Origin: a virus
Direction: 5' to 3' (one strand)
Length of the DNA: 28,486 bases
Virus record (IMG/VR): IMGVR_UViG_3300029910_000080
Location: 1-28,486 of that record
A program made the position numbers and the translations under genes. Shown here piece after piece: positions 14,375 to 28,009 of this stretch; the stretch's first letter is position 1; every line of letters begins with the position of its first letter. The notes beneath the pieces were generated by a model. The model was not told where the DNA came from. It made no database searches and saw only the letters and a list, made by a program, of their open reading frames with translations.

Positions 14375-14435
14375 ATGGCTGTTGGAAATAATTCAGCTTC
14401 CTTTGTTATCGGCTCAATTTCGGGCCTGCTGCGCT
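14375..14435 (+). CDS. Major capsid protein, exon 1
   Basis: The ATG at 14375 has GAAGGTG upstream and reads MAVGNNSASFVIGSISGLLR before a TGA at 14435. In the unspliced RNA translation would stop there, but a group I intron begins here and the capsid frame resumes at about 15131. The exon probably ends with the T at 14435 (the U of the U-G pair in P1). An alternative end is the T at 14420, which would give a junction reading GSISPLPSTQAVFYD. In both cases the phase (one base of a serine codon) fits a 3' exon starting at 15131. Confidence 0.72.
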
Positions 14436-14630: not shown

Positions 14631-14660
14631 TTGACACTAGATGTAAGAGTGTGATACAAT
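14631..14660 (+). promoter_or_regulatory. Promoter of the intron endonuclease
   Basis: TTGACA (14631-14636) and TACAAT (14655-14660) are 18 bases apart, a sigma70-type promoter. AGGAG (14672-14676) follows just ahead of the endonuclease ATG. This would let the endonuclease be made independently of capsid transcription. Confidence 0.75.
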
Positions 14661-15050: not shown

Positions 15051-15130
15051 TCCATCTAAAAGAGAGAAGTTGTATCTCAAGATGCGCGCCTTAAATCTTC
15101 GCGGTCAAATCTAAACACGTAACAAATCTG

Positions 15131-16122
15131 CACCACTCCCTTCAACCCAGGCGGTCTTCTATGACCGTTTGGCCGTCCGTGCACTGTTCGCTCACCTTGG
15201 TTTCCAGGGTTTGTGCGCAGAGCGCCAGATTCCTAAGTCTGCTGGACGTACGACTCAAATCTACACGTACAACCTGTCGCCGTTTACGGCTTCAGTGTCT
15301 GCTACGGGTACCGATGTGACCGTACCTCAAGCAACCGAAGGAACTGTCGGCACGCCTATCACCCCGACTGAAGCATCCATTCAGGCAGTGCTTGGCCAGT
15401 ACGTTGATTACGTCAACGTTTCTGACTTCGCCCTTGCGGTTGATATCGGCAAGCCGCTCGAACAGCTAAGCGAAATGCTTGGCTACAGAGGCGCATTGGT
15501 TGTTGACACTTTGACCCAGCAGGGTTTCGACGCTGCTGTTTCAACCGACCCAACAGCTAACTTGCAGGTTCTTGGCGGGTCGTTCATGACACGCGCAGTT
15601 ATCAACACTGCCGTGGCAACGATTCGTGGCAAGAATGGACGACCGTTCGCAGGTGGACGTATGCGTGGAATCATGCATCCGTACATTCTCAACGACGTAG
15701 CTAACGACGTAACAGTCAATGGCGTACTCGATGTTGAGAAGCACACCCGCGAAGGTCAGAAGTGGATTGAAGCTGGCCTCGCAGAAGACAATGAAATCAT
15801 CCCGATTGCTGGCGTTGATTTCGTGCTTAGCACCAACCTACCGTTGAATGCTAACCTCCCGGTTTCCGGTGCGTCTTCTTGGGCAACGTACATTACCGCT
15901 GACGAGATGATGTTTGCTATCGCTCTCGGTGGTTTTGAAGACGTTCCCGACGAGTCTAACTTCAAGGCGAACATTTACGAGTTCGCTCCTTCCGCGTTTG
16001 ACCCAGGCGGAGAGATCGGTGGGGCCGTTAGTTATAACTTTAAGTACGTCGTGACTCCACGTCCGACAGGAAATGGCACCTTGCCTTTCCGTCGTATTTG
16101 GTCTGAAACGGCGACCGCTTAA
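15131..16122 (+). CDS. Major capsid protein, exon 2
   Basis: The frame is open from 15115 to TAA at 16122. Spliced to exon 1 it gives about 350 residues, a usual HK97-fold capsid length. The sequence starts QAVFYDRLAVRALFAHLGF, followed by LPKSAGRT-like IPKSAGRTTQIYTYNL, an E-loop/strand region (EGTVGTPITPTEASIQAVLGQYVDYVNVSDFAL) and a spine helix (QLSEMLGYRGALVVDTL), a pattern typical of this capsid group. A TTG at 15169 could look like a start but has no ribosome binding site. The intron explains the missing N-terminus. The C-terminal part is beta-rich, ending RIWSETATA. Confidence 0.88.
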
Positions 16123-18207: not shown

Positions 18208-19134
18208 ATGAAATCAATCAACATAATAAGTTCGCTCATGGGAGCTGGTTTGCACCGCGAAGCGCTGCTGCTCCAAGACCTTCTCGCGTTGAACGGGCAC
18301 GAATCTCGTTTGATGCACTACACCGATGGCGCGAATGCTCCGATGGAACGCGCTGATATAAACCTCTTTTTAGAGGTAGTCATGCCCACCGCCCTTCCCC
18401 TCGCAAAAGAGAATTGGCTGGCACCCAACTGTGAATGGTGGCCAGACTTTAACGACCAATACCTGCCGCACTTCACCAAAATTCTGTGCAAAACCCGAGA
18501 CTGTTATGACATCTGGTCCAAAAAAGTTGGAGCAGACAAGTGCGTTTACACCAGTTTCGAAGCGCGCGACATCTTTCAGCCGCACGTTCGCCGCGAAAAC
18601 ACTTTTCTGCACATTGCGGGCAAGTCTGCGAATAAAGGTACAGCGGCGGTCCTAGCGGCCTGGCAGATGATTCCGAATGGCCTGCCGCCACTGACTGTGG
18701 TCGCGTCCAACCCCGAATTCAAAGCGCAGTTCGAACAGAACCGCAGCAACATCACGTTCTACCATGATAAAATTGACGAGCCGCTGTTGCAGGATTTGAT
18801 GAACCGCAACAAGTTTCACATTCAGCCCTCCCCCTACGAAGGATTTGGACATGTGCAACACGAAGGCATGGGATGCGCGAACATGGTCATCGTGGTTAAT
18901 GCGCCGCCGTTCCAGGGGTACACAGGGTCTTTGCCGATTGTTCAACCGTCGCATTTCACCCAGCAGCGCCTAGCGCGCATGGCCCAAGTCGCACCGAATT
19001 CCGTCCGCCTGAGTTGCTTGGGGGCGCTCGACATGTTTCACGACACAGAATTCAATGTCGGAGCGCGTGTGTTTTTCTTGAAGAACCGAGATTTCTTCCG
19101 TAAAACTTTCATGGCGCTTGTGGAGGGCGTGTGA
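18208..19134 (+). CDS. Glycosyltransferase, GT-B fold (GT4-like)
   Basis: This 308-residue enzyme probably transfers a sugar from a nucleotide donor. The N-terminal Rossmann-like half begins INIISSLMGAGLHREALLL. The C-terminal donor half has HIQPSPYEGFGHVQHEGM, the E211-x7-E219 signature of GT4-type enzymes, followed by a typical ANMVIVV strand. GGGGAG before the ATG at 18208 decides the start over a GTG at 18175. It opens a coupled operon: its TGA overlaps the next GTG by four bases. The acceptor is unknown; the operon context suggests a phage-made glycan. Confidence 0.82.
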   Translation: MKSINIISSLMGAGLHREALLLQDLLALNGHESRLMHYTDGANAPMERADINLFLEVVMPTALPLAKENWLAPNCEWWPDFNDQYLPHFTKILCKTRDCYDIWSKKVGADKCVYTSFEARDIFQPHVRRENTFLHIAGKSANKGTAAVLAAWQMIPNGLPPLTVVASNPEFKAQFEQNRSNITFYHDKIDEPLLQDLMNRNKFHIQPSPYEGFGHVQHEGMGCANMVIVVNAPPFQGYTGSLPIVQPSHFTQQRLARMAQVAPNSVRLSCLGALDMFHDTEFNVGARVFFLKNRDFFRKTFMALVEGV

Positions 19135-20042
19135 ACACCGTTGAAGTAATCTGGCACGAGGGTGCCAATCGCAGCGACAACCGCTGCTGGCTGGGAGTGA
19201 CCAAGCTGTTGAACGATGCGTTCGACGGTTGCGAGAACTATCATTTTGTCCATCACAGCACCTGGGCAGAGATGCCCACAAGTGGTGTCGATGGCGCTGT
19301 TGTCGTTTATCACGGCGACCACGAGTTCACCAAGATAGAAGAAATCCAAAAAGAACTTGCGACTCTGAAGTGGGCGCTCATCATTGTGATTGGCGACGAG
19401 AGTGCGCTGTTCCCCTGCGGACGCCTGGTGGCTCTGAACCGCAAAGTTTGGTTTCAAATTCCGATGCCTGGCGCGCGCCATTCATATTCGGTTCGCAATC
19501 TCATCTGCGGATATCCGCCAGACGCTCCTGAGCATTTGGCACCTTTTGATTCCACATCGGTAGAACGGCCCCTAGACTGGTTTTTCTCTGGTCAGATTAC
19601 TCATGCTCGTCGCATTGCGTGTGCCACAGAGCTTCGTAAGATGAAAAATGGAAGACTTATTGAGAACGCGGGCTTCTGGCAAGGTCTACCGCGCGCCGCG
19701 TACTACGCCGCAATGGCCAGTGCCAAGATTATTCCTTGCCCATCGGGGCCGACCACGCCGGATTCATTCCGCATGGCAGAAGCACTGGAAGCCGGATGCT
19801 TGCCAATTGTGGACGGCACTTGTCCCCGCGAGGGATACCCAGAAGGCTTCTGGAAGAACATTTTTGGATACGAGCCGCCGTTCCCTGTCATCTATGATTG
19901 GGCAACGCTGCCCCAGGTCATGGAAAAAGCGCTGGCAGAGTGGCCGAAGAATCGCGATATCGCTTGCAAGTGGTGGCAGCTTTACAAAGGCGAGATGAAG
20001 AAGTGGCTCGCAAAAGATTTGGATTCCCTGAGAGGAGTGTAA
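19131..20042 (+). CDS. Exostosin-like glycosyltransferase (GT-B)
   Basis: This 303-residue protein resembles exostosin/GT47-type domains. The C-terminal half has PSGPTTPDSFRMAEALEAGCLPIV (about 204-225, with D211, E217 and E220), the donor-binding signature of that group, and an upstream DWFFSGQITHARR strand typical of it. The start is GTG at 19131 within the previous stop (GTGA overlap), so translation is coupled. No signal peptide or membrane anchor is visible, so it acts in the cytoplasm. Donor and acceptor cannot be read from the sequence. Confidence 0.78.
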   Translation: MNTVEVIWHEGANRSDNRCWLGVTKLLNDAFDGCENYHFVHHSTWAEMPTSGVDGAVVVYHGDHEFTKIEEIQKELATLKWALIIVIGDESALFPCGRLVALNRKVWFQIPMPGARHSYSVRNLICGYPPDAPEHLAPFDSTSVERPLDWFFSGQITHARRIACATELRKMKNGRLIENAGFWQGLPRAAYYAAMASAKIIPCPSGPTTPDSFRMAEALEAGCLPIVDGTCPREGYPEGFWKNIFGYEPPFPVIYDWATLPQVMEKALAEWPKNRDIACKWWQLYKGEMKKWLAKDLDSLRGV

Positions 20043-20776
20043 TGTCACTAAAAGACAAAGTAACGGTGCTCGTTCTGACATCACCAATCAAGTCGCACCC
20101 AGACACGTCGATTATCTGCCACACAATTGCGACGTGCCGATTCCATTTTCCAGACAGCAGATTGATTGTGCTTATGGATGGCGTGCGCGCCGAGCAGGAA
20201 GAGTACCGCGAACGGTACACAGAGTTCAAGTCGCGGCTTCGCGCAAAATTCGCGAACGATGACAAGACAGAATTTGTCGAGTTCGACAAGCACATGCACC
20301 AAGTTGGTATGACACGCTTCGCGTTGAATGAAGTGGTGAAGACCCCGCTAATCTTTTTCGTTGAACAGGACATGCCTATCGTTATCGATGAGCCCATCGA
20401 ATGGGAAGGCATCATCGCCGCCGTCTATGGCGAGCAATACTATCTGGTTCGCTTGATGCACGAAGCTTTTCCACTAGCGGTTCACGAGCACCTCATGGGC
20501 AAGGTCCAATATATCGCGGGAGTCCGCTTCCGCCAGACCATTCAGTGGTCGCAACGTCCGCACCTCGCTCGTGTAGATTTCTACAAGCGTATGCTGGAAG
20601 CCCATTTCAGTCCTGAAGCCAACACTTTTATCGAGGACCGCTTGCACGGCGCGGCCCAAGACTTCCCCTGGGACTACACCAGAATGGCAGTCTACTTGCC
20701 CAACGACACAAATTGCAAGAGAGCGTACCACACAGACGGACGTGAGGGCGATACCAAATTTGACATGGTGTTTTAA
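20042..20776 (+). CDS. Glycosyltransferase, GT-A type (244 aa)
   Basis: The protein begins with VTVLVLTSPIKSHPDTSIICHTIATCRFHFPDSRLIVLMDG, the GT-A pattern of strand, loop and donor-binding helix. A metal-binding-type strand FFVEQDMPIV (D110 region) follows. The start is the ATG at 20042 that shares bases with the previous TAA, with GAGAGGAG upstream; a longer frame overlapping the previous gene is rejected. Its own TAA overlaps the next ATG. It is one of six glycosyltransferases in the window; the substrate is unknown. Confidence 0.75.
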   Translation: MSLKDKVTVLVLTSPIKSHPDTSIICHTIATCRFHFPDSRLIVLMDGVRAEQEEYRERYTEFKSRLRAKFANDDKTEFVEFDKHMHQVGMTRFALNEVVKTPLIFFVEQDMPIVIDEPIEWEGIIAAVYGEQYYLVRLMHEAFPLAVHEHLMGKVQYIAGVRFRQTIQWSQRPHLARVDFYKRMLEAHFSPEANTFIEDRLHGAAQDFPWDYTRMAVYLPNDTNCKRAYHTDGREGDTKFDMVF

Positions 20777-21771
20777 TGCCGATTCTTCTAATCACAGGCG
20801 GCGCGGGATTTATTTCCAGCCATATCATCGAATATTTTTTGAGACTGACCGACTGGTCAATCGTGGTGTTGGACAAGTTCACGTACGCCAGCCACGGGCT
20901 TACTCGTTTGAAGGAAATCGGCGCGTATGACAATCCGCGCGTAAAGATTCATGTCGTAGATATCGCGCGTCCCATGAGCCTGCTTCTGGAGCAGGAAATC
21001 GGACATGTAGACTACATTCTGCACATGGCGGCAGGCACGCACGTCGACAATTCCATCCGCTGTCCCCGAGACTTCGTAGAAACTAACGTCATGGGTACCC
21101 TGGAGATGCTCGAATTTGCGCGTCGTCAGCCAGCGCTGAAGAACTTCATTTACTTCTCAACCGACGAGGTGTTCGGTCCCGCGAAACCGGGTGTCAGCTT
21201 CAAGGAGTGGGACCGTTACAATTCTTGCAATCCGTATTCGGCCACTAAAGCGGGCGGAGAAGAGCTTGCACTAGCCTGGGCTAACACATACAAAGTGCCA
21301 GTAACCATCACTCACACGATGAACGTCATCGGGGAGCGTCAGCACTTTGAGAAGTTCTTGCCCAAAGTTGTGCGCGCCGCGATTACCGGAGAAGAAATTC
21401 TGCTTCACACCGACGCGGCAGGAAAGACCAGCGCCAGAACCTATCTGCACGGTAAAGATGTAGCAGACGCTCTGTATTTTATCATGCAAATTCCCGCGTG
21501 CCGCGAAAAGTACAACATCGAAGGCCAGCAAGAGGTTTCTAACGAAGACTTGGTAAAAAGCGTTTCGCTCACCCTCGACAAACCGATTCTAACCAAGAAA
21601 GGAATGCCGACAACCCGTCCGGGAAACGACGCACGCTATCATGTTGATGGAAGCAAGTTGCGCGCGCTGGGGTGGAAGCCGGGACTCAGCTTCAAAAAAA
21701 GATTGGGCATGACCGTATGGTGGATGGCACAGCCTGAAAATCTGCACTGGTTGGGACTAGGTAAAGAGTAG
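20776..21771 (+). CDS. NAD-dependent sugar-nucleotide epimerase/dehydratase
   Basis: This 331-residue protein is an extended short-chain dehydrogenase acting on a nucleotide sugar, closest in pattern to dTDP-glucose 4,6-dehydratases. It has the NAD motif TGGAGFISSH (7-16), the FSTDEVFG strand with S128/T129/D130/E131, and the catalytic Y154-x3-K158 in NPYSATK. The 4,6-dehydratase group carries TDEVYG at that place, and D/E here match its acid/base pair. The product would be a modified sugar donor for the neighbouring transferases. Its ATG overlaps the previous TAA. Confidence 0.87.
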   Translation: MPILLITGGAGFISSHIIEYFLRLTDWSIVVLDKFTYASHGLTRLKEIGAYDNPRVKIHVVDIARPMSLLLEQEIGHVDYILHMAAGTHVDNSIRCPRDFVETNVMGTLEMLEFARRQPALKNFIYFSTDEVFGPAKPGVSFKEWDRYNSCNPYSATKAGGEELALAWANTYKVPVTITHTMNVIGERQHFEKFLPKVVRAAITGEEILLHTDAAGKTSARTYLHGKDVADALYFIMQIPACREKYNIEGQQEVSNEDLVKSVSLTLDKPILTKKGMPTTRPGNDARYHVDGSKLRALGWKPGLSFKKRLGMTVWWMAQPENLHWLGLGKE

Positions 21772-21780
21772 AAATAACCC

Positions 21781-21810
21781 TTGACAAGTAACCCTATTCT
21801 GTGATATAAT
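21781..21810 (+). promoter_or_regulatory. Promoter of the HNH gene in the sugar operon
   Basis: TTGACA (21781-21786) and TATAAT (21805-21810) are 18 bases apart. The transcript would start at about 21817, just ahead of GGGAG (21818-21822) and the ATG at 21831. Confidence 0.8.
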
Positions 21811-21830
21811 CTTAAATGGGAGATTATATT

Positions 21831-22370
21831 ATGAAACCAAAGCCACAGAGAATCAAAGACAGAACTGGACAACGAATGGGTCGTCTTGTTTTTCAGAAGT
21901 TTACAGGGCTGGTCAAAAACAAACAAGCCTATTGGCAGTGTCTGTGTGATTGTGGCGCTATTGTAGTGGTGTCTGGTGTGTGGGTACAGTCGGGAAATAC
22001 TCGTAGTTGTGGCTGTTTGAGAAAAGAGCGTTCCGCTGCTGCATTGCGCACCCACGGGCAGTCTGCGGGAGGAAGAACCCCTGAGTATCAATTATGGCTA
22101 AGTGCCAAGTCTCGGTCTATTCGAGACGGGTTGCCTTTTGACTTGTCTGTTTTTGATATCAAAATTCCAGAATATTGTTCTCTGCTTGGAGTAAAGTTGA
22201 CAGCAGGAACACGCAAAGCACACGACGCAAGCCCGTCGTTGGATAAAATCATTCCTGAATTGGGATATGTCAAGGGAAACATTCAAGTAATTTCTCACAG
22301 AGCCAACTGGATAAAAAGCAACGCTACTTTAGATGAATTGAAAACCATCATAGCGAATTGGGGGAGATAG
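21831..22370 (+). CDS. HNH-type homing endonuclease in the sugar operon
   Basis: The 179-residue protein has an N-terminal cysteine-rich DNA-binding module (CLCDCG, then GNTRSCGCLRKE, about 46-73) and a C-terminal HNH-like domain (PSLDKIIPELGYVKGNIQVISHRANWIKSNAT), a combination found in phage homing endonucleases. The ATG at 21831 is chosen over one at 21816 because GGGAG lies between them and the promoter puts the transcript start at about 21817. It separates the epimerase from the next transferase, and its TAG overlaps that GTG start by one base, so it may keep operon coupling intact. It is AT-richer than its upstream neighbour. Confidence 0.8.
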   Translation: MKPKPQRIKDRTGQRMGRLVFQKFTGLVKNKQAYWQCLCDCGAIVVVSGVWVQSGNTRSCGCLRKERSAAALRTHGQSAGGRTPEYQLWLSAKSRSIRDGLPFDLSVFDIKIPEYCSLLGVKLTAGTRKAHDASPSLDKIIPELGYVKGNIQVISHRANWIKSNATLDELKTIIANWGR

Positions 22371-23287
22371 TGAAGATTGTTCTTTTTGGAAATCATCGTT
22401 TCATTTTTAGTACTGAATCACATCATCTTTGGACTTGGAAAAAACTAGGACATGAAGTGGTTGCATTGCAAGAAGGTGTCGCAACCACTGATGACATCCT
22501 CAGAGCCTGTGAAGGTGCGAGCGTGCTGCAAGTCACCCACACGCATGGTTGGTCGATTGCAGGCTCTATAACTCCAGAAGAAATGCTCAAACGAGTTCGA
22601 GCTATGGGAGTGAAGACCTTTAGCTACCACTTGGACTTGTATTTTGGCTTGAACACACTGGACAAGAGAGCAGAACGAGTTGGTCAGCATTGGTCTTGGA
22701 AAGTAGACTATTTCTTCTCCACGGACGGCGCGCACGAAGCCGAGTACAAAGCGGCGGGCGTGAACCACTATTACCTGCCCCCTGCGGTCGTGGAATATGG
22801 CTGCTTCAAGGGCCAATACAATCCACAGTTCGCGACAGACATTGCCTTCACAGGCTCTGTGGGATACCATCCCGAATATCCGTTCCGCACGAAGCTGATT
22901 GAGAACCTTCGTCGCGTTTACGGCGGACAGTTCCGAGTATTTTCGGGCATGCGCGAGGACGCGCTGAATTCGGTGTACGCATCATGCAAAATTTTGATTG
23001 GCGACCACTGCATGGCAGGCATGCCACGCTATTGGTCAGACCGTTTGCCTGAAACCTGCGGTCGCGGGGGCTTTATCCTCTATCCAAAGACCGAGGGCAT
23101 GACCATTCCCACGGCAACTTACGAGCCACAGAACCTCGTGGACATCTACAACAAGGTCGCATACTACTTGAACCACCCGCAGGAGCGAGAAGCGATTCGC
23201 GACGCGGCTTTCGAGCACGTTCGCAAATTCGACACATACACAAACCGCTTGCAGGAAATTCTGCGCGTCATGGGTTTCCAGCAATGA
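22370..23287 (+). CDS. Glycosyltransferase, CgeB-like GT-B
   Basis: This 305-residue protein fits the CgeB/Glyco_trans_1_2 group. It has an N-terminal KIVLFGNHRF strand, a central YFFSTDGAHEAEYKAAGVNHYYLPPAVV (anticipated donor-site loop), DIAFTGSVGYHPEYPFR and a C-terminal LPETCGRGGFILYPKTEGM strand with the DAAFEHVRKFDTY helix seen at the end of that domain. GTG at 22370 is chosen because GGGGAG (22361-22366) precedes it; a TTG 12 bases earlier is unlikely. The first third of the gene is AT-richer than the rest, with a change near 22700. Its stop overlaps the next start (ATGA). Confidence 0.78.
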   Translation: MKIVLFGNHRFIFSTESHHLWTWKKLGHEVVALQEGVATTDDILRACEGASVLQVTHTHGWSIAGSITPEEMLKRVRAMGVKTFSYHLDLYFGLNTLDKRAERVGQHWSWKVDYFFSTDGAHEAEYKAAGVNHYYLPPAVVEYGCFKGQYNPQFATDIAFTGSVGYHPEYPFRTKLIENLRRVYGGQFRVFSGMREDALNSVYASCKILIGDHCMAGMPRYWSDRLPETCGRGGFILYPKTEGMTIPTATYEPQNLVDIYNKVAYYLNHPQEREAIRDAAFEHVRKFDTYTNRLQEILRVMGFQQ

Positions 23288-24033
23288 GTGCCGTGTTAGT
23301 GGCGGGCATCGGGTGTCACAGCCGTGCGCATTACTCAGACGCGCAAAGACTGACTTGGGTGCCTCAACTAGGAGTCGAGCATCGATTTTTCTTTGGGAAC
23401 CCAGCCAAGTATGCGGCGAGAGTCCGAGAACACCACGACGAAATATGGTTGCCCACAGGCGACGACTATTTCACCTTGGCCGATAAAGTTCAGGCATCTT
23501 TGCGATGGGCTTTGGACAACAAATTTCACTCGATATTTTTGGTGGATGACGACACGTATGTGAACGGAGCCAATCTTCGGGCAGCTCTGGGAGATTGGGA
23601 GAAATATCAATATGCGGGTCGCCAAAGACCAGATTCTCGCTACCTGTCTGGGGCCGCGTACTATCTGGGACAAAAAGCCATGAATGTTTTGGCCGATGCG
23701 GTCGTCCCGTCTACCGTGACCCGAGCTTACGGCTTGCCCGCTTTTCCATATCTTGAGGGATGGATAGACTACGTTTTGAGACAAGAGGAAATCGAAGCAA
23801 AGCCCGACTCAAGAATCAAATTTAGTAACGTGTCGATTGACAAAAAGGTAGAAGTAGAGCCAGTCGAGGCAGATACAGTAGCAGACTTTGAATGGTCTGG
23901 TTTGGATATGTTTGCGCGGCACAATCACTTCAGCGAGACCAAGGTAACACCTTCGATTGAATGGCGTCTGAGAAACTTAGAATTTCAAGCGTCTAATAAA
24001 AATATGAGTCTGCAAGAAAAAACTTTCAAGTAA
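23284..24033 (+). CDS. GT31-like galactosyltransferase (249 aa)
   Basis: The sequence resembles beta-1,3-galactosyl/GlcNAc transferases. SDAQRLTWVP matches the R..TW start, FLVDDDTYVN carries a D88-D89-D90 metal site, and YLSGAAYYLGQKAMNVL matches the GxGY/S.G..Y..S segment. It lacks the signal anchor of eukaryotic members, so it would work in the cytoplasm. The ATG overlaps the previous TGA. It is the last gene of the sugar operon, followed by a bidirectional terminator. Confidence 0.75.
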   Translation: MSAVLVAGIGCHSRAHYSDAQRLTWVPQLGVEHRFFFGNPAKYAARVREHHDEIWLPTGDDYFTLADKVQASLRWALDNKFHSIFLVDDDTYVNGANLRAALGDWEKYQYAGRQRPDSRYLSGAAYYLGQKAMNVLADAVVPSTVTRAYGLPAFPYLEGWIDYVLRQEEIEAKPDSRIKFSNVSIDKKVEVEPVEADTVADFEWSGLDMFARHNHFSETKVTPSIEWRLRNLEFQASNKNMSLQEKTFK

Positions 24034-24037
24034 AAGA

Positions 24038-24055
24038 GGCGGGTTTTACCCCGCC
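24038..24055. terminator. Bidirectional terminator
   Basis: GGCGGG/CCCGCC closes a TTTTAC loop. It lies 5 bases after the sugar-operon stop and 11 bases beyond the stop of the minus-strand collagen-like gene. On the minus strand it is followed by a TCTTTT run, so it fits a Rho-independent terminator for that gene, and it probably serves both. Confidence 0.75.
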
Positions 24056-24066
24056 CCTAGTCGAAA

Positions 24067-24885
24067 CTACTGTTGAACCACTGAGTCAAACTGAATTGCC
24101 TGGAACTGTACCAAATCCAGATTTCCGCTCACCGATTGAGAACAGGTCAGTACGACAGTCGAAGGCGTGGATGTTGTAACCACACCCTGAACCTGTACAA
24201 TAGTCTGAGCAGGAATCTGAGCCGCGCCGAGGATTGCCTGATTGTTACTAAACGGGCTTTGTCCAGACACGGCAAGATTGCACGCAACCGTCACGGCTTC
24301 CCCAGGATTCTGAGGAATCACACTGAAGTTCGTTGTCGTGCTCGCTGTGACGAAAAAATTTCCAGCAGGCAGAGACAAAGATGCAGTGTTTCCGTTGACC
24401 ACGGTAGTAGTGGTATAGATAACACTCGACCCTGAAGGGCCTTGCGGACCTGTGGGGCCGCTTGGACCTTGAACGCCAGTCGCGCCTGTGCTTCCGGCAG
24501 GACCAGTTGCTCCCGTGGCTCCTGGCGCACCTTGCAATCCAATCGGACCTTGAGGACCGACCGCACCGAAAGCGACCGCGAAGTCGTAGGTGTTTGAAGC
24601 AGAGTTGATAATTTTCAACAAGTAGTCGGACCCGTTGACCAATCCAGACGGCAGAGCGGAAACAATCTGCGTATCGGAAACGGACGACGGAGCCAGAACC
24701 ACATTGTTGAATTTCACAGTCGGGGCAGTAGAACCTGGTTCAAATCCCTTGCCCGTCACCGTGATGACGTTGGACGTGTAGTTGATTGTCTCGTTGTATA
24801 CCGTGGGTTGAACGGCTGTTTGGGCATGCACCGAGATTGCCGAAAGCAGCGCAATCACGGCCAATACAAACTTGAACATTTTCAT
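24067..24885 (-). CDS. Secreted IPT/TIG plus collagen-like protein
   Basis: This 272-residue protein has a clear signal peptide ([21 protein letters not shown], cut after about 21), an IPT/TIG-like Ig domain (about 28-107, [21 protein letters not shown]), a run of about 14 Gly-x-y collagen-type triplets (about 110-152) and a C-terminal beta domain. It would be exported by the host, unlike any other gene here. AAAGGAG lies before the ATG at 24885; a longer frame upstream has no such site. It is on the opposite strand, with its own promoter and terminator, which marks it as cargo. It may change the infected cell surface or be a host-derived gene; no function is known. Confidence 0.8.
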
Positions 24886-24913
24886 TTTTGTGGCTCTCCT
24901 TTGAGCCATGTAC

Positions 24914-24942
24914 AGATTACCAAAATTCAGGAAGTCTGTCAA
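24914..24942 (-). promoter_or_regulatory. Promoter of the collagen-like gene
   Basis: On the minus strand TTGACA (24942-24937) is followed after 17 bases by TAATCT (24919-24914), a perfect -35 with a weak -10. The start of transcription would fall about 20 bases before the ATG. Confidence 0.6.
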
Positions 24943-24956
24943 CAGGAAAAATCCCA

Positions 24957-25703
24957 ATGGCATCAAGCACCTCCATCACAATCCAGAACACGCTCGATTG
25001 GTTGACCGCGTTCATTCTTCAACGTCCGACCATCGGTATCGGCAACTCACCGGGCGGTCTTGAGCCAGCTCTGACAACAGCGAACATGGTTATGCAGATG
25101 ATTTTGCAGCCACCTTTCGTGTGGTCGTGGAATCGTACAGTGCTGACCACTGCTTTTACCACCTCTGCGGGCGTGTCAGACTACTCCGTTTCCTTGCCCA
25201 CTTACGGCTTTCTTGAAAACGCGACATTGGTGAATGCTAATGCGACAGGCCAAACCCCTCCGAACACCCCGCTAGAAATTTTTAGCATTCTGGCTAAGGA
25301 AGGCAAGCAGAACAAACCCAATAAGATTGCGGTCATCTTGGACGACGACAACGGCAATATCACGTTCCGTGTGTTTCCTGTGCCTGACGCCATTTACACT
25401 GTGGATTTGGATTTCCAGAGAGCCCCTGTGTTGGCGACGGCGCTGGGAGCAACCACCTGGGCTCCGATTCCCGACAGATTGGCGTTTTTGTACGAGCGCG
25501 CTATGATGGCGCAGTTGATGTTGATGTACAACTCGCAACTCTACATGCAAAATATCGAATTGTTTTTCCGTCAGCTAGTTTCCGCCGCCGAAGGTCTTAC
25601 TGAGACACAAAAAGCGATTTTCTTGGAAGACTCGCTACGTATCGCGCGCACTCGTGCCGCGTCTGCATTGGATGTCCAACAGGGTAAGGGGGCTCGCAGC
25701 TAA
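24957..25703 (+). CDS. Neck/tail structural protein A (248 aa)
   Basis: No named family is certain, but the pattern of an early helix pair, PPFVWSWNR, a beta segment ([17 protein letters not shown]) and a C-terminal helix ([23 protein letters not shown]) occurs in phage head-tail connector or tail-tube adaptor proteins. The ATG at 24957 follows AGGA; a longer frame is rejected. Its stop overlaps the next ATG. The next gene looks like a longer paralogue with matching segments in the same order. Confidence 0.65.
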
Positions 25704-26731
25704 TGGCCAGCACAGTCGCAAGTACACTAACGGGCGAAATCTTGCTCGCATACGGTCGTCTGTACCCGTGGACGACTCCGGTCTTGAGCGTTCCAGGCTC
25801 GTCTGACGAACCTACGCTGACTTTCTTGGACGATATCGTCAAGAAAATCATGTCCAAATCGAATCCGTGGCCGTGGAACGAAGCGCTCGCGCCCACATTT
25901 TTTACTCAGCCGTATCAGCAGGACTACCCGACCAGTATCAGCCAGAACGTAATGGGTTGGTTGCAGAACTGCACAATGATTGACATCAACAACGTCACCA
26001 CTTCTTCGAAAAACCAGCCGCCGTTGCAATGCGTGGCTCGTTTGCTTCCTCAGTGGATACCAGGATACCCGACAAAAATTTGTTGGATTATCAATTCGTC
26101 TGCCCAGCTTGGCGTGTGGCCAGGACCGGGCGTCGTTTATCAGAACCCGCTCGCGGCATCGCAGGGTGGACCGACTCTTGGCGGACCCGGGAACAACCCT
26201 CTGGCCGCAATTAAGGATACGAACGGCAATATTCAAGTTGTGACCGCGTACGGCACCACCGGGCAAGCTGCAACGGGCGCTTCCGCTCCCGCGTGGCCAT
26301 CTGCTGGCGCTGCCGCGGGCACGAACACAACCGATGGCACCCAGGGATTGGTGTGGACCGTGCAGGACCCGAACGGAATCGCGTTCCGTCTGGACCAAGT
26401 CGCGTCATTCGGCTCACAGGTTTTCCAAATCGCACCTGTTTACCAACTGAAACCACCGAACATCACTTCTTTGGGGCAGACCATTGCGCCGATTCCCGAT
26501 GACCTGAGCTATTTGGTCAAGCGCGGATTCCTCGCGTACTGTTATGAACAGGTCGACCACGCGAAATTCACCATCGCCTATGCTGAATGGCAAGCTGCCA
26601 TCAAGGATGCACTGGGCGCGAGCGACCGTGAGGACCAGGAATTTGGATTCTACCCAGCAGATGCGATGCAGTCCGGCTGCGAAGGCGGCTACGACTATAC
26701 AGGGTGGCCCGGCTGGTCGCCTTCAAACTAA
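25703..26731 (+). CDS. Neck/tail structural protein B, paralogue of the upstream gene (342 aa)
   Basis: Matching blocks with protein A run in the same order: NPWPWNEAL against [33 protein letters not shown] against [21 protein letters not shown], and IAPIPDDLSYLVKRGFLAYCYEQ against [21 protein letters not shown]. The extra length is a middle insertion of about 100 residues (about 150-240), Gly/Ala/Asn-rich, with a DGTQGLVWTV motif like those in surface-exposed virion modules. It probably forms a neighbouring connector ring or an adorned version of one. Both start and stop codons overlap neighbours (TAATG). Confidence 0.65.
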   Translation: MASTVASTLTGEILLAYGRLYPWTTPVLSVPGSSDEPTLTFLDDIVKKIMSKSNPWPWNEALAPTFFTQPYQQDYPTSISQNVMGWLQNCTMIDINNVTTSSKNQPPLQCVARLLPQWIPGYPTKICWIINSSAQLGVWPGPGVVYQNPLAASQGGPTLGGPGNNPLAAIKDTNGNIQVVTAYGTTGQAATGASAPAWPSAGAAAGTNTTDGTQGLVWTVQDPNGIAFRLDQVASFGSQVFQIAPVYQLKPPNITSLGQTIAPIPDDLSYLVKRGFLAYCYEQVDHAKFTIAYAEWQAAIKDALGASDREDQEFGFYPADAMQSGCEGGYDYTGWPGWSPSN

Positions 26732-27087
26732 TGTTCTCAAAAATCAAGCAGTTCTTCGTCATCAAGAATGAATTCGGTCCCGTTGCGGCGCTGTTTGATT
26801 TCTTTCAGGGCCGCACGACCTTTTTCGCTATCGTTTTTGCGATAGACGGCATCGCTTTGTCCGCTACCGCCGTCTACGGCATCGTCCACGGCAAGGATAT
26901 CACCTCAATCGCGGGCATTATAGCGTCCCTTGCGGCGTTCATGGGCAGTTTGCAGGCACTTCTCTTTGCCCATTCCTGCAAAGAAGACTGGGCACGCATC
27001 CAATCACGCAAATTGGACATCATGGAAGCCCAGGGCAAGCCCGTTCAGCCTGGCGCAACCGTCACACAGACCGAAGTGAAGCAGTAA
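26731..27087 (+). CDS. Two-helix membrane protein, holin-like (118 aa)
   Basis: The ATG at 26731 overlaps the previous TAA. Two hydrophobic helices lie at about 29-52 and 57-80, joined by the short turn HGKDI, with a charged C-terminal tail. Length and topology fit a class II holin, but no lysis gene (endolysin or spanin) is recognised nearby, so lysis is a guess; a virion membrane or tail protein is also possible. It is the last gene before the next promoter. Confidence 0.55.
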   Translation: MFSKIKQFFVIKNEFGPVAALFDFFQGRTTFFAIVFAIDGIALSATAVYGIVHGKDITSIAGIIASLAAFMGSLQALLFAHSCKEDWARIQSRKLDIMEAQGKPVQPGATVTQTEVKQ

Positions 27088-27095
27088 TTTACTGC

Positions 27096-27124
27096 TTGAC
27101 AACGCGCGCGCAGTGTGATATAAT
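27096..27124 (+). promoter_or_regulatory. Promoter of the distal glycosyltransferase gene
   Basis: TTGACA (27096-27101) and TATAAT (27119-27124) are 17 bases apart, preceded by TG as in the other cargo promoters. A leader of about 55 bases leads to GAGGAG and the ATG at 27185. Confidence 0.8.
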
Positions 27125-27184
27125 GGTTTGTTAGTAATTCCCCACCCGTTTCACCCCCAAAATGACCCTAATCCGAGGAGAATC

Positions 27185-28009
27185 ATGGATTTGTCCGTTG
27201 TAATCTCGTCTTTTCAGAATCCACAGGGCTGTTATTTAACCGTTTTCGCGCTCTGGGAACAGCTTTCCAAGACAGATTTGACCTGGGAAATCATCGTGGC
27301 GGCGGACGGCGGCACCGAACAGCAGTGGGAAAAACTGAAACATTGTCGCGCGATACGTATTCGGACTGGCTCACCGCAAGGAACCCGTGACGCTGGCATC
27401 AGGGAAGCCGCTGCTGCGACCGTTCTGGTGGTTGAGGACCATGTCATCGTTTCTGATATTGCGTCGTTCTACGCGCTTCACAAGCGTTTTGGCGGGGCAA
27501 TGACGTTTCCTGCCCGAATAGGCGAAGGGACTTCGATGTTTTCGGTCTATGGCACCACGACGAACTGGGATGGCAATCTCTGGTTCAAACAAACCATCTA
27601 CAGTCCACCCAATAGACACACTTATCGTGTCCCGCAATTCGGACACTCCTGTTTTATGATAGACCGCGCGGCATACATCGCCGTGGGCGGATACACAGAC
27701 CTGCTCAAGGGCTGGGGGGGAGAGGAGCCTCACCTGTGCCTCAAATTTTGGATGCTGGGGTATCAACTCTGGCAGACATCGCTCATTTGGCACGCGCACT
27801 TTCTCGCAGACCGCACGGGCGGCGCGATGCAGTCCGAGGATTTTCAGAAAAATTTCAAGATTGTGAAATATGTTTTGACAGGCGACTCTGCCGGATTGCA
27901 AGTCACGCCACCAATGCTGGTTGAAAGGCAGCGCATCATGAACGGCCCTTTCAAAGGTGACATCAATCTACTGCGCGAACATTTCAAGCGCGAAGGAATC
28001 GCTGCATAA
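27185..28009 (+). CDS. Family 2-type glycosyltransferase (GT-A, GalNAc-T-like)
   Basis: This 274-residue enzyme has the GT-A start LSVVISSFQNPQGCYLTVFALWEQL, an acidic metal site VVEDHVIV (E84, D85) and the C-terminal galactosyl/GalNAc-transferase signature GGYTDLLKGWGGEEPHLCLKFWMLGYQLW (GWGGEE at 176-181) followed by a HAH strand (WHAHFLAD). GAGGAG precedes the ATG at 27185; longer frames upstream are rejected. It sits among tail genes, apart from the sugar operon, and has its own promoter. It may add a sugar to the tail or extend the same glycan. Donor and acceptor are unknown. Confidence 0.82.
   Translation: MDLSVVISSFQNPQGCYLTVFALWEQLSKTDLTWEIIVAADGGTEQQWEKLKHCRAIRIRTGSPQGTRDAGIREAAAATVLVVEDHVIVSDIASFYALHKRFGGAMTFPARIGEGTSMFSVYGTTTNWDGNLWFKQTIYSPPNRHTYRVPQFGHSCFMIDRAAYIAVGGYTDLLKGWGGEEPHLCLKFWMLGYQLWQTSLIWHAHFLADRTGGAMQSEDFQKNFKIVKYVLTGDSAGLQVTPPMLVERQRIMNGPFKGDINLLREHFKREGIAA

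Follow-up and report, generated by a model that had tools for sequence, protein, structure and literature searches.

The 28,486-base stretch analyzed here (hereafter the window) is the entire IMG/VR record IMGVR_UViG_3300029910_000080, a genome fragment of an uncultivated, podovirus-like soil phage, and it carries, among head, neck, and tail genes, a cassette of seven enzymes for glycan synthesis: six soluble glycosyltransferases (GTs) and an RmlB-like nucleotide-sugar 4,6-dehydratase. Four of the GTs recur together in other uncultured phages, and from this conservation it would seem that such phages make a sugar coat of their own. We lean, with modest confidence, toward an oligosaccharide that is assembled in the cytoplasm on one of the phage's virion proteins.

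A four-enzyme core and its spread

The original prediction of six GTs and a dehydratase among virion genes held for all seven enzymes on the basis of profiles, motifs, and, for one GT, a structural model. Profile support, of varying strength, was obtained for six of the seven. All are encoded on the plus strand. The core quartet begins with a GT4-like enzyme of GT-B fold (18208-19134), which matches PF00534 and PF13692 at an E value of about 2e-4 (under the curated cut-off) and a PHROG glycosyltransferase at 5e-4, carries the EX7E motif EGFGHVQHE, and occupies the same place in relatives. It is followed by a GT47/RXYLT1-like GT-B enzyme (19131-20042; PF24785, 32.6 bits against a cut-off of 27; AlphaFold pLDDT 94.8) whose model resembles most closely, among PDB folds, the chlorovirus xylosyltransferase A075L, then T4 alpha-glucosyltransferase and EXT1-EXT2; since the template modeling (TM) score is near 0.5 for all of these, the acceptor cannot be named from the fold alone. 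Sequence identity to A075L, an enzyme that acts on the chlorovirus capsid glycan, is 12%. The third member (20042-20776, 244 amino acids) matched no Pfam family above chance and no PHROG, and its structure was therefore modeled (AlphaFold pLDDT 93.7). The model points to a GT-A fold glycosyltransferase of no known family, with TarS, TarP, and polypeptide GalNAc-transferases as best PDB matches and an ExD motif (E108, D110) that is invariant in 35 sequences. The quartet is completed by a CgeB-like glycosyltransferase (22370-23287; PF13524 Glyco_trans_1_2, 4.6e-11; PHROG, 1.5e-39).

Three further enzymes accompany the core. The dehydratase (20776-21771) has dTDP-glucose 4,6-dehydratases as its best PDB matches (E 7e-50) and contains the Rossmann motif (GGAGFI), the catalytic Thr-Asp-Glu (STDEV, within STDEVFG), and YxxxK (YSATK) expected of an RmlB-like enzyme. 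A GT31-like glycosyltransferase (23284-24033) belongs to the variable part of the cassette; it scores 23.2 against a PF01762 cut-off of 23.0 and has a DDD motif, and GT31 homologues are also present in locus L042. Finally, a GT27/GT2-like glycosyltransferase (27185-28009) is a possible initiating enzyme, with 25.9 bits to PF02709 Glyco_transf_7C (cut-off 23) and a weak PDB match to GalNAc-T10 (E 0.004).

Five of the GTs had been placed in a single operon, and this part of the prediction did not survive. The genes for GT4, GT47, GT-A, and the dehydratase overlap by 4, 1, and 1 bases and form one run; a second consists of a homing endonuclease gene with its own promoter, overlapping the CgeB-like gene by 1 base, which in turn overlaps the GT31-like gene by 4. 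A collagen-like gene then lies on the minus strand, and the GT27-like gene stands apart with a promoter of its own. The homing endonuclease (21816-22370, plus strand) is of HNH/endonuclease VII type (PHROG endonuclease, 1e-27). A GT2-type transferase gene occupies its place in relatives G007 and G010 (loci L013 and L016), and the window has therefore probably lost one transferase.

By contrast, the proposal that the cassette builds an oligosaccharide was strengthened by the distribution of the core. A scan with a CgeB alignment yielded 67 loci. In 66 of them CgeB has homologues of both GT47 and GT-A no more than 7 kb away, the remaining locus being cut by a contig end. GT47 and GT-A form a single open reading frame of 490-564 amino acids in 13 loci (L153, L154, L159, L160, L162, L164, L166, L170, L177, L198, L200, L205, and L207), as do GT4 and CgeB in L152 and L156-L158. 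These fusions, together with the fixed neighborhood, indicate linked steps of one pathway, and on this genomic evidence the quartet is inherited as a unit common to dozens of uncultured phages. The loci include a second phage group, in which the order is CgeB, an optional dehydratase, an FkbM methyltransferase, GT47, GT-A, and GT4. At one locus of this group a carbamoyltransferase gene (L181:6985-8514) lies near the quartet, suggesting carbamoylated sugars.

Relatives of the window phage comprise a near-identical sister (G002, 47.7 kb) and phages at 45-77% portal identity. The cassette lies between the major capsid protein (MCP) gene/orf17657 and two neck adaptor genes in nine lineages (the window, G007, G010, G004/5/6, G014, G015, G016/17, G018, and G020; portal identity 55-77%), the adaptors being reached where the contig is long enough. 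The common order is MCP, orf16839, orf17657, GT4, GT47, GT-A, variable genes, CgeB (where the contig reaches it), and adaptors, except that in G016/17 a radical SAM gene separates GT4 from GT47. Variable genes in relatives encode dehydratases (including a second dehydratase), FkbM methyltransferases, a B12 radical SAM enzyme, GT2, and GT31. The GT27-like gene lies 3' of the adaptors in G015, G017, and G018 as well. When the window is compared with the two closest lineages, synonymous sites of the GT genes are saturated and the proportion of nonsynonymous differences (pN) is 0.16-0.29, as against 0.16 for the portal and 0.31-0.34 for the first adaptor and the scaffold gene; the cassette GT genes are under purifying selection. 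Conservation of place in other lineages under such selection puts the cassette beyond chance. The backbone MCP-orf16839-orf17657-adaptor is kept without any GT in G019, whose MCP is 72% identical.

Among sequenced isolates, 50,697 phage records in one collection were searched by tblastn at one sensitivity. No match was returned there for the window's GT47, GT-A, and GT31 proteins or for two divergent representatives of GT47/GT-A. CgeB was found without the rest of the quartet in nine Streptomyces phage records; in one of these, phage Yara, the CgeB-like gene comes immediately after, and overlaps, a 1293-codon gene located beyond the lysin gene. The GT27-like enzyme had one match, in the Acidobacteriota phage Tunturi_4, between TerL and portal. 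On these searches the quartet does not appear as a set in sequenced isolates.

Candidate acceptors of the glycan

In the pathway that we envisage, the dehydratase would draw on a host NDP-glucose pool to make an NDP-4-keto-6-deoxy sugar, and a protein-initiating transferase, for which the GT27-like enzyme is the candidate, would start the chain on a Ser/Thr residue of a protein from the head, neck, or tail; in some relatives this initiator may be replaced by other GT2-type enzymes. The quartet would then lengthen the chain to some four to six sugars; capping or variation of the glycan would fall to variable enzymes (GT31 and GT2, joined in relatives by FkbM methyltransferases, a B12 radical SAM enzyme, and a second dehydratase). 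No hydrophobic membrane segment was found in any cassette GT, and Pfam revealed no flippase, polymerase, or lipid-linked starter enzyme in the window cassette, which fits a soluble acceptor. Attachment to the virion is also supported by the position of the cassette in the virion gene block of nine lineages, by the gene contexts of the GT27-like gene in Tunturi_4 and the CgeB-like gene in Yara, by the A075L fold match, and by the precedent of glycosylated mycobacteriophage virions.

Several observations weigh against it. Adjacency to capsid genes is circumstantial and does not identify the acceptor, nor is it universal, since roughly 5-20 kb separate the quartet from the terminase gene in the second phage group, and the quartet's neighbors there are often on the opposite strand. 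The GT47-like model also bears a weak resemblance (TM 0.5) to the DNA alpha-glucosyltransferase of T4. Another gene takes the GT27-like position in G010, so the putative initiator is not universal. Expression may not be late only, given the consensus host-type promoters at the GT27-like gene and ahead of the CgeB/GT31 run. A broader proposal, which we would put somewhat below an even chance, is that the four-GT engine is modular and horizontally shared, often with FkbM methyltransferases and dehydratases, and that at least two unrelated groups of uncultured phages use it to build a chlorovirus-like, complex methylated oligosaccharide on capsid or neck, largely independently of host glycan pathways.

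The cassette might instead modify the surface of an infected or lysogenic cell (lipopolysaccharide, S-layer, or exopolysaccharide), blocking superinfection or changing a receptor. This we consider rather unlikely, despite a tyrosine integrase domain in sister G002 that makes lysogeny possible, the separation of quartet and capsid genes in the second phage group, and the occurrence of FkbM methyltransferases, radical SAM enzymes, dehydratases, and carbamoyltransferases in surface polysaccharide pathways too. A cassette without a membrane-spanning GT, flippase, polymerase, or lipid-carrier starter is ill matched to such a role, though host machinery could supply both export and lipid carrier, and in nine lineages it keeps a fixed place among the virion genes, which argues in the same direction. 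Neither the window cassette nor the variable genes that were scanned in its relatives contained Wzx/Wzy, ABC export, or lipid-phosphate starter transferases. Serotype conversion by Gtr systems depends on membrane proteins, and the window cassette gave no Pfam match to the GtrA flippase, to membrane GtrB, or to a polytopic Gtr. From sequence alone, the preference for virion over host surface is a tentative one.

DNA is a third potential acceptor, the GTs glycosylating hydroxymethylated bases as in T4 or in TET-linked clusters. It gains some plausibility from relative G017, which has the same cassette and encodes a thymidylate-synthase homologue that scores 96 bits to the CMP 5-hydroxymethylase MilA against 59 bits to thymidylate synthase. 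It contains GLPYD and has Asp in place of Asn, the mark of cytosine specificity, and is likely, from these sequence features, to be a dCMP hydroxymethylase. A row of three genes at L138:11612-14624 of G017 comprises this candidate, a fusion of a P-loop kinase and a UDG-like domain, and one resembling C5 methyltransferases. DNA modification was therefore tested indirectly, by avoidance of palindromes: all 64 six-base palindromes were compared with a Markov expectation and with random sets of non-palindromic words. The premise is that restriction-protected DNA should show little avoidance, an indirect sign in phages whose hosts and restriction systems are not identified. The observed/expected ratio was 0.67 (z -17) for the window and its sister, and 0.74, 0.70, 0.57, and 0.63 for the cassette-bearing G010, G007, G006, and G020, compared with 0.65 for the cassette-less Tunturi_3 and 0.34-0.75 for other cassette-less relatives. 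Avoidance is almost lost in the subclade of G014, G015, G017, and G018 (0.93-0.96), and the second phage group is mixed (0.56-1.00). Phages with the same cassette thus differ in avoidance, and the window phage resembles phages with unprotected DNA.

No thymidylate-synthase-type enzyme was found in the window or in the 47.7 kb of the sister (an incomplete genome), and 23 further contigs with the cassette, of which six are 90-102 kb long, yielded none. A search for TET/JBP enzymes gave no match, but the control genomes gave none either, and the result is not evidence of absence. The GT genes lie, moreover, within the virion block and not beside replication genes. Even with the G017 gene row and its subclade's near lack of avoidance counted in its favor, we regard glycosylated DNA as improbable in the window phage. 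The original prediction had found no DNA-base-modifying enzyme and on that ground preferred virion or surface glycosylation. The absence is correct within the window; as an argument it is weak by itself, because the window is a 28.5-kb fragment and G017 has its dCMP hydroxymethylase candidate. The preference still stands for this phage, now favored by palindrome avoidance, the contigs lacking thymidylate-synthase-type enzymes, and gene position.

A last alternative is that the glycan is carried by a collagen-like protein with a signal peptide and Gly-X-Y repeats, encoded on the minus strand at 24067-24885 between the GT31-like gene and the adaptors, or by some other non-virion phage protein. 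Glycosylated collagen-like proteins are known from mimivirus, and this gene, apparently for a secreted product, lies inside the cluster; it is uncertain whether it belongs to the cassette as an acceptor or is an unrelated moron. It is on the opposite strand to the cassette, was found only in the window among the fetched cassette loci, and had no match in sequenced phages. Its absence from all other fetched loci means that it is not a general acceptor, and we find this alternative very improbable. A second collagen-repeat protein is encoded at L059:1420-1944.

Flanking genes, promoters, and possible host

The left end of the window is an array of 25 tRNA genes, followed by genes for terminase, portal, a scaffold-like protein, an interrupted MCP, and two small conserved proteins; the glycan genes come next, and beyond them are two neck adaptors and, at the 3' end, the first part of a tail gene. 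Searches for the continuation of the genome beyond that end returned no sequence. Virion genes identified around the cassette are TerL, portal (PHROG head-tail adaptor/portal), MCP, and an SU10-type adaptor. The adaptors (24957-25703 and 25703-26731, plus strand), the first of which matches PF24175 SU10_adaptor at 4e-9, form the 3' border of the cassette proper, and their homologues keep this order in those relatives whose contigs extend as far. In the sister, 29 tRNA genes (L037, 11881-16176) cover all 20 amino acids, and the region upstream of TerL (L037-L039) encodes, with the tyrosine integrase domain, an AAA/Clp-type ATPase, a trypsin-like peptidase, phosphoribosyltransferases, and a glycosyl hydrolase 108 lysin.

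The MCP gene is split into exon 1 (about 14375-14416) and exon 2 (15130-16122, plus strand; PHROG major head protein, 7e-5), between which lies an endonuclease open reading frame with a LAGLIDADG-like motif; Rfam gives no described intron class for the gap. Several endonuclease insertions occur in the MCP genes of L006 and L013, and that of L016 is intact. Exon 2, which flanks the cassette and encodes a possible acceptor, is 98% identical in amino acid sequence to the intact MCP of L016. The protein is likewise 98% identical in the window and both L013 and L016 despite near-saturated synonymous sites (proportion of synonymous differences, pS, 0.54-0.76), the terminases being 57-62% identical. 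Equally strong MCP conservation is found in cassette-less relatives, which have the same MCP-to-portal ratio, and shielding by a glycan was rejected as its cause. Also rejected was orf17657 as a dedicated acceptor, a homologue being present in the cassette-less L071.

Consensus sigma70-type promoters lie ahead of the homing endonuclease/CgeB/GT31 run (TTGACA-N18-TATAAT, 21781-21810, plus strand) and of the GT27-like gene (TTGACA-N17-TATAAT, 27096-27124, plus strand), and the pattern has four matches in the window where 0.02 would be expected. Three strong promoters, at 14631-14660, 21781-21810, and 27096-27124, share a near-identical sequence ending in TGTGATAYAAT; two of them precede homing endonuclease genes and the third the GT27-like gene.

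The closest isolate by portal and MCP is Tunturi_3, a 97.6-kb podovirus of Tunturiibacter (Acidobacteriota; PMC11924767), in which no member of the quartet was found. Tunturi_4, also a Tunturiibacter phage (PMC11924767), resembles the window in having a GT27-like gene, located between TerL and portal, and differs in that only this gene was matched there. Because Tunturi_3 is just 27% identical in portal and 31% in MCP, an acidobacterial host for the window phage is only a guess. A portal profile run against 84,980 prokaryote genomes returned a single distant match and hence no host link through a prophage.

Comparison with known glycosylation systems

Serotype-conversion clusters of the gtrABC type likewise consist of phage GT genes that alter glycans, although they rely on a membrane flippase and membrane GTs. 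Points in common with the DNA glycosylation of T4 and of TET-linked phage systems (Pyle et al., 2024, as relayed in PMC12619734) are phage GTs, the weak fold similarity of the GT47-like enzyme to the T4 enzyme, and the likely dCMP hydroxymethylase of one relative. The window phage differs in that its incomplete genome yielded no base-hydroxymethylating enzyme, its palindromes are avoided, and its GTs sit in the virion block. The contrast in palindrome avoidance between the subclade and other phages with the same cassette provides a natural comparison, probably of different DNA modification.

Glycosylated phage particles are known from a few mycobacteriophages. One or a few GTs are known to act in those systems, unlike the six GTs and sugar-nucleotide enzyme of the window phage. 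Virion glycosylation by phage GTs has been proven in Che8, Corndog, and Myrna (Freeman et al., 2023, as relayed in PMC11256854 and PMC12363180). Common to these phages and the window phage are soluble phage-encoded GTs and, as proposed here, a virion protein acceptor. In the tblastn search of phage records, five of the window GTs (the GT4-like enzyme not being included) matched no mycobacteriophage, and remote homology remains possible.

The cassette combines a conserved core with a variable outer part, resembling capsule and O-antigen clusters in this respect. In a soil phage group it is fixed among the virion genes, and its core is common to other uncultured phages. It offers two glycosyltransferase families, GT47-like and GT-A, for characterization should the proposed role be correct. 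A parallel is the capsid N-glycan pathway of chlorovirus PBCV-1, in which A075L and other enzymes form a virus-encoded multi-GT pathway; A075L is the closest fold to the GT47-like enzyme, and relatives of the window phage add methyltransferases. The present, predicted system belongs to a bacterial podovirus-like phage, and the two enzymes share only 12% sequence identity. Should the particle indeed carry the glycan, the chlorovirus capsid glycan would have a bacterial counterpart, with possible roles in adsorption, desiccation, and recognition in soil.

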